Below, piece after piece: positions 24,656 to 29,944 of a stretch of 64,000 nucleotides of DNA. The position numbers were made by a program, and so were the translations under genes. Position 1 is the first letter of the stretch. Each line of letters opens with the position of its first letter. The notes beneath the pieces are model-generated. The model ran no database searches and was not told the origin of the DNA. It saw only the letters and a program-made list of their open reading frames with translations. This stretch comes from Bacteroidetes bacterium 37-13. GTDB taxonomy: Bacteria > Bacteroidota > Bacteroidia > Chitinophagales > LD1. The stretch lies in contig MKTC01000023.1 in the NCBI GenBank assembly GCA_001897535.1, positions 1-64,000 of the forward strand. The letters are read 5' to 3'.

Positions 24656-27600
24656 GTGTTTAAGAAACAAAAATTATTGTTGGTGTGTTTATTGGCTATT
24701 GCTTTTGTGCATAATGCTGTTGCGCAATCTGCAATGGATTCTACTTTGCTTCGTGAATACAATACTAGGATTGCTGCTGTTGAGAAGAGCTACAACGCTA
24801 TTAAAACTAAAATTGCAGGAGAGTTTCCCAAAATAGATAAGCAGTTTTTTCCATTGGCAGATGCTGCATTTTCGTTTGCGAAGAACGATAATTTTACCCC
24901 TGATAAAAAGGTGATTTACACTAATACTTTACTCAGATTCATAAATATAATTTACGACAATGCCACCGATGCAGAAATGGCAAATGGTAAGTTGAATGAT
25001 GGTTTTAAGTATTTTATATTATTAGCCGAATGGGATAACAAAAACGTGTTGGAACAAAATATTCGTTTGTATAGAAAGTTTACGCTTGGCTATGCTTCGC
25101 TTATTCCTGATGATAAAATTTGTGAGCAATTTATTGTGGATTATGCACGCGAAAATCCCGATGAAGTTCTTCGCAACGCTTGGCAATTTGGCAAGCGCAA
25201 TTTTGCCATGCAAGTGATTGATAGCATAGTGATTGCGGCACCTGATTTGGCAAAAAAATATTTGACTTCTGATAATGAAGTGAGCTACAATATTGTGCGT
25301 AGCAAATCGCCTGTTTCCAAGTATTTGTTAAGTGTTTATAGAACTTATGGCTTGCGTTCAAAAGCATATTTGCTTGCTTACAATGTGTTAAAGAATGAGT
25401 TTAGTATGGATGCTGCAGATTCTATTGGAGATAATAATTTGCTGTTGTTTAAAACATTGATAAAGAACATGAAGCAACCTGATGCTTTTGGTAAACATTC
25501 AGTTTATCAAGTGCTTGAAAATTTTTCAATTGAACAGGTGCGAAAAGCTAATGATATTTCACAGAACCAAACCGGATACGCTGTTGCAGAATATTTTAAG
25601 GCGTATAGCAGTGAAGAAATTTTTAGCGTGATGTTGTATGGGCATAAAGAATTGAGTTTACAAGGACTTACCAATATTCTAGGCGCAATTAAGAGGATAA
25701 TATACTCTCCTTTCAACAATAATTTTATTGCTTCTATTCAACCAAATAAGCTAAAGCAGTTTTTAGCCTATATTGAAAAAAATGAACGATTAGATGTAGT
25801 ACTGCAAATGATAGATGGCAAATCGCTTAACTATATGTATCAATTGATGTCGCAGCCTATATTGCCAAGTTTAGAGCCTGATTTTTCAATTGCAGATTCA
25901 GCAGATATTCAAGCGCTTTTTAAATCAAGACTTCCTGAAGCAGGACTTTCTGTATCTATAGAAAGAACGCCTAAAACTACGCCTGATAAAGATCCTGTGC
26001 CACAAGCAGTTACTAAAGAAGTTGAATCGGTAGAAGTTGTTTCTATTCCTGTTAAAGCAGATACTGTTTCAACTTTAGAAGCAGAAGTTGATATTGAAGA
26101 AACTACTGTAGTTCCTGTTTCGCTTAGGCTTTCGGAACGCGAAAAAAACTTGCTATTGTTGAAGAAAGATTTAGCTAGTTCACTCAAAGAGATTCCTAAA
26201 TTTATAAATGAAAATTACGCGGAAGAGTTACTAATTTATGCGGCTAAACAAGCACCTGATGAAATTTTTAAACGCTTCGATACTTACAAGTCTAAATTCT
26301 TTGCAGTAAAGATTTTAGAGGCAGCAGGAAAGGCTTCGCCTACTTCTTTAAAACGTTATTTGTATAGCTCTTCTCACCCAATTTTTTTGTTGTTGGAAAC
26401 CAGCACTGATTCTATTATTAAGAAGATAATGAAAATGCCTTCGCAAGTGAGTTATCCGAGCAAAGCATATATTTTAACTGATGCTATTTTAAAGCACAAA
26501 CTCACACCATCGCAGGCTGATAATATTTGTAATTCACCACAATGTATGTTTAAAGAATTGGTACAAATTGCTAAACAAAAAGATTACATCGGACGCTACA
26601 GTGTGGAGTACGGATTAACGGATTTTAGCCTTAGATTTTTGCGTGAGATAAATGACAATATTGCGCTTAATGAGCCGGAGCCATTTAGGATAGTAGAGAA
26701 TTTTACTCAAGAAGAAATCTATTTTTTAATGGTGTTTGGTAGAGAAGAAGTAGTTACCGGTTCGTTTAATGGGTTGTTTTCTCGCTTAAAAACTAAAATG
26801 CAAAGCGAAAATTTTGTGCAGTTACTACAAGATATAAATGATAGTCATTTCCGTACATTTATTTCAATGTGTGCTTCGTATAATAAGCTAAGTGAAATTC
26901 TTACCGGCTTAAACGAGCCGCAGCGAGATTCTCTTTTTGTAAAATTTGTTCACCTTACAAAAGATGAAAATAATAATGATGGAGCAGAAATTGCTGAAAC
27001 ACTCAACAGTATTAAAGATAGGGATTTACTTACGATAATTCATTCAAGAATAAAAGCTGAATACTTGCGTGCAGAGCAAGATTCAAATAATATTGTTTTA
27101 GCACTTTACAGTGTTTTAGCAAGTTTAGTTGATGGACATGCAGTAGTTGAAAACAGTTGGTTCAATATGCTTTCAAAGCAAATTAAATTGCCTGCTGTTT
27201 CTTTGCTTCCAAACAAAAATTTGATGGAAGAAAATCAAGATTGTATTGAGCAAATGTATTTCTACAACGATGTGGACGGACGGGAATCTTTCGTAAACTT
27301 TTTGAATACTTTTAAAGTGCTACCAACTTGGCAAACAGAAGATAAAGGAAGCTACGTAATTGTGCGAAGTGTGGAAGGAAACAAAGTAGAAATTTACGCA
27401 AATAAACCGGAATATGAATCGAATGGACAAGATGCTATTGCTGAATATTTTAAAGCAAATAATTTGTATCCGATAGTCGTTATTCATAGAGGACACAGCT
27501 TTCATACAGCATCTACTTTGCAAAATGTAGATGAGCGTGTAAAATTACTTTTAGTTGGTTCGTGTGGTGGTTTCTACAAGCTTTCTAATGCTATTGATAA

Positions 27601-27838: not shown

Positions 27839-29944
27839 ATGAAAACGGCAAAAAGCAAACTCCTTTCAATTTTATTCATACTGCTGTGCTATTCGGCAAC
27901 ATTTGCTGTTGGTTTAAGTGATTCTACAGATAAAAGACCTAATTTAATTGATACCGAACAAGACAGAATTGATAAGTTAGACGGAAAGTTAGATCACTAC
28001 ATCAATACAGGCGATACGGTAACAGATAAGCAAGCAGGATTTGTTTATTTTGATGCGATTGATTACATACAAAAAGTTGTAGATAATAATTACATACCAG
28101 ACTTAGATAAAATCACTTTTTACGATAACCTTTTTGTGGAATTGAGAAACGTAAACAAGTCAAATTATTATCGAGTAGATGATATTGATAAAAGAATACT
28201 GCATGTGTTAGCAGGCTTAAATGCTGTTCGGCATAATGAACTGAAAAACTTTTTACTAGAAAACATTCCACTATCCATTCAAGTTGCAGGCTTTTTTAAG
28301 AACAGCAGCGATATGAAAACTTTTCTTTCAATCGCGGTGAAAAGATATCCAACGCAAGTATTGGTTTATGAATATTTGTTTGACGATAAAGATTATGCAC
28401 TTCCAATTTTAGAAGAAGCGGTAATTGCTGCACCTGTATTTGCTAAGAAATATTTTTTAGACAGCCACCCGATTTTTAAGTTATTGAAGCAGAGTACAAA
28501 CCCTGTTATTCAAACCATTCTTTCCATAAATAAAAAGTATGGAAGAAGCACAAATGCTTACGTTTTGTTAGATGATATACACAACAATAAACTTACTATT
28601 GATGAAGCGCACGAAATAGGAAAAGAGCATTATGCGTATTTAAAAACCATGCTCAATATTCGCAAAAAGAAAGAGCCGCTTGCGGAAAATTCTTTAGAAT
28701 CGGAGTTAGTAACAAATGCACTCAAATATGTGCGCGTGGTAAACGATTTGCATAACGAAGCAGATAATATTCGCTTTGCAAATGTTGATTCTTTTGATGC
28801 ACCGGAACTCTACACTTTAATTGTGTATAGCGAAGAAGAAATTTTTACTTCAACTTTTAATGGTTGTTTTAATCGCTTTTTGGCAAAGTTAGACTCAACC
28901 GATGGCTTCACTTTTATACAACAAATGGGCGAAAACCGTTTTCGAACTTTCATTAAAATGGCAGCAAGCTACGGCAAACTCGATAAGTTTTTAGCCACTA
29001 TGAAACCTGAAGAACAACAAGCGCTCATGGTGAAATTTGCAAGTAATTTAGAGCAAGATGAAAATGATATTGAGCAAGCAGTTGAGGTTGCCGATGCCTT
29101 TGGAAGTATCACAGATTCTACGCTTTTAACCTTGTTGCGCAATACCATAAAAAGTGAGTATTTGAGAGTTGAATCTCAAAATAATAAACGTGGGAAAATA
29201 ATTTATGGTTTGCTCTCTAATTTATTTACAGGAGATGGCGTTTTAAAAGATAAATGGTTTGCTTCAATTGCAACTAAGTATCAACTTCCACCTTTAGATA
29301 AAGTGAATTTTGAAAGCCTTTTTAGAAGAAACAAACACAATATTTGGCAAATATATTTTTACGATGATGAAGATGGAGACGCATCTTTTAAAACATTTTT
29401 AGCAACCTTTAAAGATCCCAACTGGCAGATTGCAGACTATCAGCATTATGTGAAAATATTTTCTAAGAGTGGCGCTTTGGTTACTATTTATGCCAATAAA
29501 CCCAAGAGTGAATACACTGGGCAGCCACAAATTGAAAAGTTATTGGATAGCTTGAAACAAGAACCAGATGTGGTTGTGCACCGCGGACACAGCTATTACG
29601 CCTACAAAACAATTGAAAAAATCCACAACAACACAGCAGTATTTATTCTGGGAAGTTGTGGCGGTTACACCAGCTTGAAAGGAATTTTTGAACGCAGTCC
29701 CAATGTGAGTGTAGTGGCTTCAAAACAAATTGGAACGATGTATGTAAACAATCCGCTTATTAAAATTATTGCGGAAGATATTCGTAATTTTAAAGATGTA
29801 GATTGGCATACTGCTTGGCAAGATTTAGAAAACAATGTAAAAGGAAATAAACAAGCTTACGAGCGATTTTTAGACTATATTCCACCACATAAAAACTTAG
29901 GCGCATTGTTTATTCGCGCATACAACAGAATGAGCGAAGAGTAA
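27839..29944 (+). CDS. secreted paralog of the upstream protein with HRGHS...GSCGG domain
   Basis: signal-like N-terminus; VVVHRGHSYYAYKTI...VFILGSCGGYTSL; shares KQIGT..VN.P and YIPPH.NL..LF.RAY with 24656..27838. Confidence 0.8.
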   Translation: MKTAKSKLLSILFILLCYSATFAVGLSDSTDKRPNLIDTEQDRIDKLDGKLDHYINTGDTVTDKQAGFVYFDAIDYIQKVVDNNYIPDLDKITFYDNLFVELRNVNKSNYYRVDDIDKRILHVLAGLNAVRHNELKNFLLENIPLSIQVAGFFKNSSDMKTFLSIAVKRYPTQVLVYEYLFDDKDYALPILEEAVIAAPVFAKKYFLDSHPIFKLLKQSTNPVIQTILSINKKYGRSTNAYVLLDDIHNNKLTIDEAHEIGKEHYAYLKTMLNIRKKKEPLAENSLESELVTNALKYVRVVNDLHNEADNIRFANVDSFDAPELYTLIVYSEEEIFTSTFNGCFNRFLAKLDSTDGFTFIQQMGENRFRTFIKMAASYGKLDKFLATMKPEEQQALMVKFASNLEQDENDIEQAVEVADAFGSITDSTLLTLLRNTIKSEYLRVESQNNKRGKIIYGLLSNLFTGDGVLKDKWFASIATKYQLPPLDKVNFESLFRRNKHNIWQIYFYDDEDGDASFKTFLATFKDPNWQIADYQHYVKIFSKSGALVTIYANKPKSEYTGQPQIEKLLDSLKQEPDVVVHRGHSYYAYKTIEKIHNNTAVFILGSCGGYTSLKGIFERSPNVSVVASKQIGTMYVNNPLIKIIAEDIRNFKDVDWHTAWQDLENNVKGNKQAYERFLDYIPPHKNLGALFIRAYNRMSEE

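Follow-up and report, generated by a model that had tools for sequence, protein, structure and literature searches.

A tandem pair of predicted exported proteins in Bacteroidota with a conserved Cys-His domain, possibly peptidases that work like clan CD enzymes

The gene pair and the family it belongs to

Here we describe two adjacent genes in a 64,000-nucleotide stretch of the Bacteroidetes bacterium 37-13 genome (contig MKTC01000023.1, positions 1 to 64,000; hereafter the window), the products of which are predicted to be exported and end in related domains that carry invariant histidine and cysteine residues. The first gene (24656–27838, + strand, GTG start) encodes a 1060-residue protein, the long paralogue, with a signal peptide, two diverged copies of a helical-repeat region and a C-terminal Cys-His domain (27221–27835, + strand, delimited by the domain alignment). 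The second (27839–29944, + strand, ATG start) encodes the 701-residue short paralogue, with a signal peptide, a helical solenoid (about residues 63–463) and the same C-terminal alpha/beta domain (29318–29941, + strand; residues 494–701, delimited by the domain alignment and a structural model). The stop codon of the long gene abuts the start codon of the short one, TAG being followed directly by ATG. Within the domain of the long paralogue, translation and conservation place an HRGHS block at 27485–27499 (+ strand; His944 and His947) and a GSCGG block at 27557–27571 (+ strand; Cys970, codon 27563–27565). In the short paralogue, the residue numbers of which are used throughout, HRGHS lies at 29579–29593 (+ strand; His581, codon 29579–29581, and His584, codon 29588–29590) at the end of predicted strand b5, GSCGG at 29651–29665 (+ strand; Cys607, codon 29657–29659) at the end of strand b6, and a DDEDG block (residues 509–513, with Asp510 and Asp512 invariant) at 29363–29377 (+ strand) in the loop after strand b1.

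The initial annotation gave the same coordinates for both open reading frames (ORFs) and for the HRGHS and GSCGG blocks, and the same direct abutment of the genes, all of which our ORFs and translations confirm. It also described a related C-terminal domain; the domain is indeed common to both proteins, but the homology runs far beyond it. Over 566 columns, the short protein and residues 497–1054 of the long one are 35% identical (E 5e-109), so the whole architecture is common to the two, and the long protein contains the helical part a second time, in diverged form, at residues 129–383 (E 7e-19).

The family is real and is without a name in the libraries searched. Pfam and NCBIfam returned no family at cut-off for either protein, PDB sequence searches no relative, and the viral contigs searched no relative; nor did the literature search find the HRGHS motif in a relevant paper. 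A Peptidase_C78 match (E 0.11) and, in three members, EF-hand matches (best E 0.013) were marginal and were judged to be due to chance. The C-terminal domain is present in 178 of the 399 genomes of the window's order (Bacteroidota), in 65 of the 113 genomes of a second order and in 59 of 150 relatives; in wider samples it occurs in 22 of 396 genomes from the class and 15 of 399 from the phylum. Two of the homologous loci are labelled Bacteroidetes metagenome-assembled genomes. Among the loci listed, a tandem pair is usual in the window's own family and several others, and a large family of the same order (f21) has mostly one copy and sometimes two. Members are very widespread in f21, and also in two families that belong to another order of the class. 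In a tree of the domain, 20 long members fall in one clade of 22 (support 0.975), which indicates that the duplication is old. An ancient tandem duplication suggests either a pair of enzymes whose substrates are related but differ, or a working enzyme with a regulatory partner.

A hydrophobic N-terminal segment was found in 137 of the 144 full-length members by a crude hydropathy test, and a lipobox-like N-terminus in just seven. These N-termini agree with predicted export. No type IX secretion system (T9SS) C-terminal domain was found in either window protein.

Conservation and predicted structure of the Cys-His domain

Conservation was assessed in 187 distinct domain sequences (effectively about 119 sequences at 80% identity), and also in a smaller set of 67 sequences, with identity to the window protein reaching down to about 33%. 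Asp510, Asp512, His581, Arg582, Gly583, Ser585, Gly605, Cys607 and Gly608 are invariant in all 187 domains, as are Asn637, Trp656, Trp660, Tyr680, Pro683 and Asn686; His584 is kept in 184 and Gly609 in 181, and Lys629 and Gln630 are nearly invariant. Cys607 is the sole conserved cysteine of the domain. The initial annotation had proposed a His/Cys dyad, and conservation of the candidate residues among homologues strongly favours it: neither the cysteine nor the first histidine varies in any of the 187 domains, far more than chance would give. The pattern is typical of an active site, not of a structural motif. A strictly conserved histidine precedes the strictly conserved cysteine, the order seen in clan CD, at a distance of 23 residues from His584 or 26 from His581, and downstream of Cys607 no histidine or glutamate is conserved at 93% or above in the 187 domains.

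The three domains that lack His584 belong to long paralogues in which the block reads HRGLS or HRGYS, with leucine or tyrosine in its place and His581 and Cys607 intact (L038, 8181–11159; L039, 8169–11171; L040, 4474–7266). From their sequences it is possible that these long forms are inactive partners (pseudo-enzymes), or that they are a sign of His581 being the catalytic base.

Structures were predicted with AlphaFold2 from alignments of just five to six sequences (the window and two related loci). The model of the whole short paralogue has a predicted local distance difference test (pLDDT) score of 67 and a predicted template-modelling (pTM) score of 0.55, and the model of its C-terminal domain a mean pLDDT of 74.6 and a pTM of 0.77. 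Residues from about 63 to 463 were modelled as a helical solenoid, and the domain as an alternating alpha/beta succession in the order b1 (residues 500–506), a1, b2, b3, b4, a2, b5, a3, b6, a4, b7, a5. In both models b5 ends at His581 and b6 just before Cys607, with helix a3 between them. The invariant residues follow b1 (Asp510, Asp512), b5 (the histidines), b6 (the cysteine) and b7 (Asn637, Lys629, Gln630), and in such a model they would plausibly line a single edge of the sheet, the arrangement expected of an alpha/beta enzyme.

Coevolution analysis (mean-field and pseudolikelihood) favoured a parallel b6–b7 pairing (p about 0.01–0.04) and gave weaker signals for parallel b5–b6 (p about 0.06–0.15) and b1–b5 (about 0.15); strands b2–b4 could not be placed relative to b1. 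As b5 and b6 are successive strands, the histidine and the cysteine may plausibly be neighbours in space, with weak coevolution support for the b5–b6 pairing.

Relationship to known cysteine enzymes and a possible mechanism

The closest comparisons are with the CHAT family (PF12770), notably the TPR-CHAT proteins, in which, as here, a helical repeat region is followed by the C-terminal domain. We compared the domain with CHAT, C14 and C25 profiles built from genomes of the window's order, alongside 26 unrelated families and block shuffles, with class I glutamine amidotransferase (GATase) and DJ-1 as rivals. By P-value CHAT was the best match (P 0.018, probability 2.5%), over 75 columns that cover the cysteine strand and then a helix, a strand and a helix, and Cys607 fell on the catalytic cysteine; it did so in 60 of 60 resamplings (median P 0.015), and in 51 of 60 for C14 (P about 0.08–0.1). 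One of 100 block-shuffled profiles reached the CHAT score. A further likeness is a second conserved histidine just before the catalytic one in CHAT (LHLATHG). There are also differences: CHAT has THG where the window family has RGHS, the spacing of 23 residues between His584 and Cys607 is shorter than that of CHAT, and Pfam gave no match to CHAT. Most CHAT proteins are cytoplasmic, whereas an export signal is present in the window family.

Separase (C50) has a large helical N-terminus and a C-terminal caspase-like domain (PMC4626109). The window proteins resemble it in having a helical N-terminus and then a C-terminal domain, but differ in that separase is eukaryotic and nuclear or cytosolic, and has H-G and G-C motifs where RGHS and SC occur here. 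The His-Cys spacing is short in both cases, being about 26 residues in human separase. Caspases and metacaspases (C14) likewise place histidine before cysteine, each residue following a hydrophobic strand, but their GHG and DACHSG motifs are absent from the window family and there is no Pfam C14 match. Among exported clan CD peptidases of Bacteroidota, gingipain (C25) and clostripain-type (C11) enzymes are further points of reference, and C11 enzymes have extra strands between a1 and the histidine strand (PMC4357240); the model of the window domain also has extra strands before its histidine strand. The window proteins nevertheless match neither C25 nor C11 in Pfam and lack the T9SS C-terminal domain.

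We suggest that the pair represents an exported Cys-His hydrolase, built of a solenoid and a C-terminal cysteine-nucleophile domain, and that it is a peptidase working like a clan CD enzyme, a proposal to which we give about an even chance. To file the family in clan CD is premature: the proposal is that it works like a clan CD peptidase, not that it is a demonstrated member. In the scheme that we infer for catalysis, peptidase activity and specificity, the solenoid would keep a substrate or partner protein in place, either in the periplasm or beyond the cell. Cys607, at the end of b6, would serve as nucleophile, and a histidine with which the adjacent strand b5 ends would activate it. That histidine could be His584, whose place in R-G-H-S matches that of the clan CD histidine in x-G-H-G, or His581, which is the more conserved. 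The enzyme would then cleave a peptide bond in the manner of caspases, CHAT proteins and gingipains. In gingipain R and MALT1, a P1 arginine is bound by an aspartate of a1 (Asp163 and Asp365, respectively; PMC4357240). The loop with Asp510 and Asp512 lies near the place of the S1 aspartate in arginine-specific clan CD enzymes, so arginine or lysine is the first P1 specificity that we would propose, with the loop as a candidate S1 pocket for cleavage after either residue; alternatively, it may be a calcium site. We also consider it a tentative possibility, somewhat short of an even bet, that these proteins are exported His-Cys peptidases of a new family, with an architecture akin to that of separase and TPR-CHAT and with HRGHS in place of H-G, and that they may serve in envelope sensing or turnover, a role suggested by the frequent PhoR/PhoB-like two-component neighbours described below.

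Several observations weigh against the peptidase proposal. The CHAT match is non-significant on its own, and by raw score CHAT ranks third of 27, with two unrelated families above it; no clan CD family in Pfam (CHAT, C11, C14, C25 and others) gave a significant match at cut-off. True clan pairs score hardly better in the same calibration (median P 0.0095 for C25–CHAT and 0.0645 for C14–C25), so this non-significance is no evidence against clan CD. The gingipain profile does not align, and the GATase profile reaches P 0.021 over 29 columns around Cys607. The initial annotation had invoked the His-Gly motif of clan CD; judged by the consensus of the fetched CHAT, C14 and C25 sets, with their invariant histidine, the family departs from it, with H-S after His584 and H-R-G after His581, Ser585 and Arg582 being invariant where the motif would require glycine. 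The three long forms without His584 add to this. A Foldseek search of both shallow models against PDB returned no clan CD enzyme in the top 50, its top matches being small GTPases with template-modelling (TM) scores of 0.3–0.48 and root-mean-square deviations (rmsd) up to 19 Å and most others generic GTPase and helical-repeat structures, so the caspase-like fold that had been proposed is not confirmed. Of the secreted caspase- or gingipain-like peptidase pair put forward at the outset, a conserved candidate dyad and predicted export hold up; the fold is unconfirmed and the H-G motif is not matched exactly.

The absence of a caspase fold among the structural matches would also be expected if the domain were a cysteine enzyme of another alpha/beta fold, GATase-, DJ-1-, acyl- or transpeptidase-like, with its substrate in the envelope. 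GSCGG fits the nucleophile elbow G-x-C-x-G of class I GATases, with which it aligns, Gly605 being present in 187 of 187 domains and Gly609 in 181, and the GATase profile put cysteine on cysteine in 46 of 50 resamplings (P 0.02–0.04). That alignment covers just 29 columns and then stops, whereas the one with CHAT spans 75, and the DJ-1 profile put cysteine on cysteine in none of 50; moreover, both GATase and DJ-1 require a histidine after the cysteine, whereas here the downstream His-Glu pair is missing and the invariant histidine lies upstream. We regard this alternative as unlikely, although it deserves appreciable weight. More doubtful still is a domain that binds and does not cleave, in which the invariant H-x-x-H, cysteine and aspartates would form a metal or ligand site. 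The three-residue separation of His581 and His584, the invariance of Cys607, Asp510 and Asp512, and the marginal EF-hand matches that D-x-D-G yields in three members would all suit such a site, but the HRGLS and HRGYS variants retain the cysteine, which is unusual for a structural-metal ligand, and Ser585, Gly605 and Gly608 are equally invariant and better fit an oxyanion hole. A Ras-like GTPase domain, finally, is highly improbable. Small GTPases are the top matches of the domain model (best E 3e-4) and are frequent among those of other models, but the TM-scores and rmsd values are those given above, no P-loop GxxxxGK[ST] follows b1, where the sequence is YFYDDEDGDASF with no lysine in the loop, no Pfam G-domain match was found, and the protein is predicted to be exported to where GTP is absent.

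Two further readings were tried and rejected. For a chymotrypsin-like enzyme (clan PA, 3C-like) GSCGG fits G-x-C-G-G but spacing and fold do not: clan PA enzymes have a beta fold of two barrels, with the histidine about 100 residues before the cysteine, while here the histidines are 23–26 residues upstream in a model of alternating alpha/beta type; an alpha/beta-hydrolase was rejected on spacing and fold.

If the peptidase proposal is true, many environmental Bacteroidota carry an exported protease, single or duplicated, that Pfam, NCBIfam and PDB sequence searches have missed; the solenoid-plus-caspase architecture of separase and TPR-CHAT would be linked to the bacterial envelope, and the neighbouring two-component genes of many relatives would offer a route to the enzyme's signal. 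Even if it is not of caspase type, the dozen absolutely invariant residues and lone invariant cysteine make it very probably an enzyme of undescribed chemistry, and thus a clean experimental target.

Genomic neighbourhood and other genes of the window

A PhoR-like histidine kinase lies at most three genes away in 67 of the 129 neighbourhoods, and a PhoB-like regulator in 64. These two-component genes are divergent from the family gene in f21; in other families, a few genomes have them upstream of it and in the same direction. There are exceptions to this link: in the window's genome, a different contig carries the closest kinase homologue (57% identical). Upstream of the family gene in the second order there is usually a gene that, going by its sequence, is RNA methyltransferase-like. 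The pair is followed in the window by genes for a Peripla_BP_6-like protein and then a protein with weak TPR matches, and among the loci compared the closest relative is the only one in which these two also go with the pair. Overall, gene context hints at an envelope function without proving one. In f21 (L041–L061, L247–L306) the family gene often sits between a divergent PhoBR-like pair and an MsbA-like ABC transporter, which is followed by an apparent ATP synthase operon, an unusually stable site for an unnamed gene.

The divergent neighbour of the pair (24072–24569, − strand) encodes a small lipoprotein-like protein of 165 residues; a cluster of its homologues lies at the corresponding place in seven neighbourhoods, which come from two or more families. 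Elsewhere in the window, a 941-residue ORF (2093–4918, + strand) has no Pfam match, and an exported-looking fusion of rhodanese and thioredoxin domains is encoded at 20940–21713 (− strand). A gene at 59295–61892 (− strand) encodes a secreted streptopain-type Peptidase_C10 with a propeptide of the Spi inhibitor type and, at its C-terminus, a type IX secretion domain, so the genome has a conventional secreted cysteine protease nearby as well.

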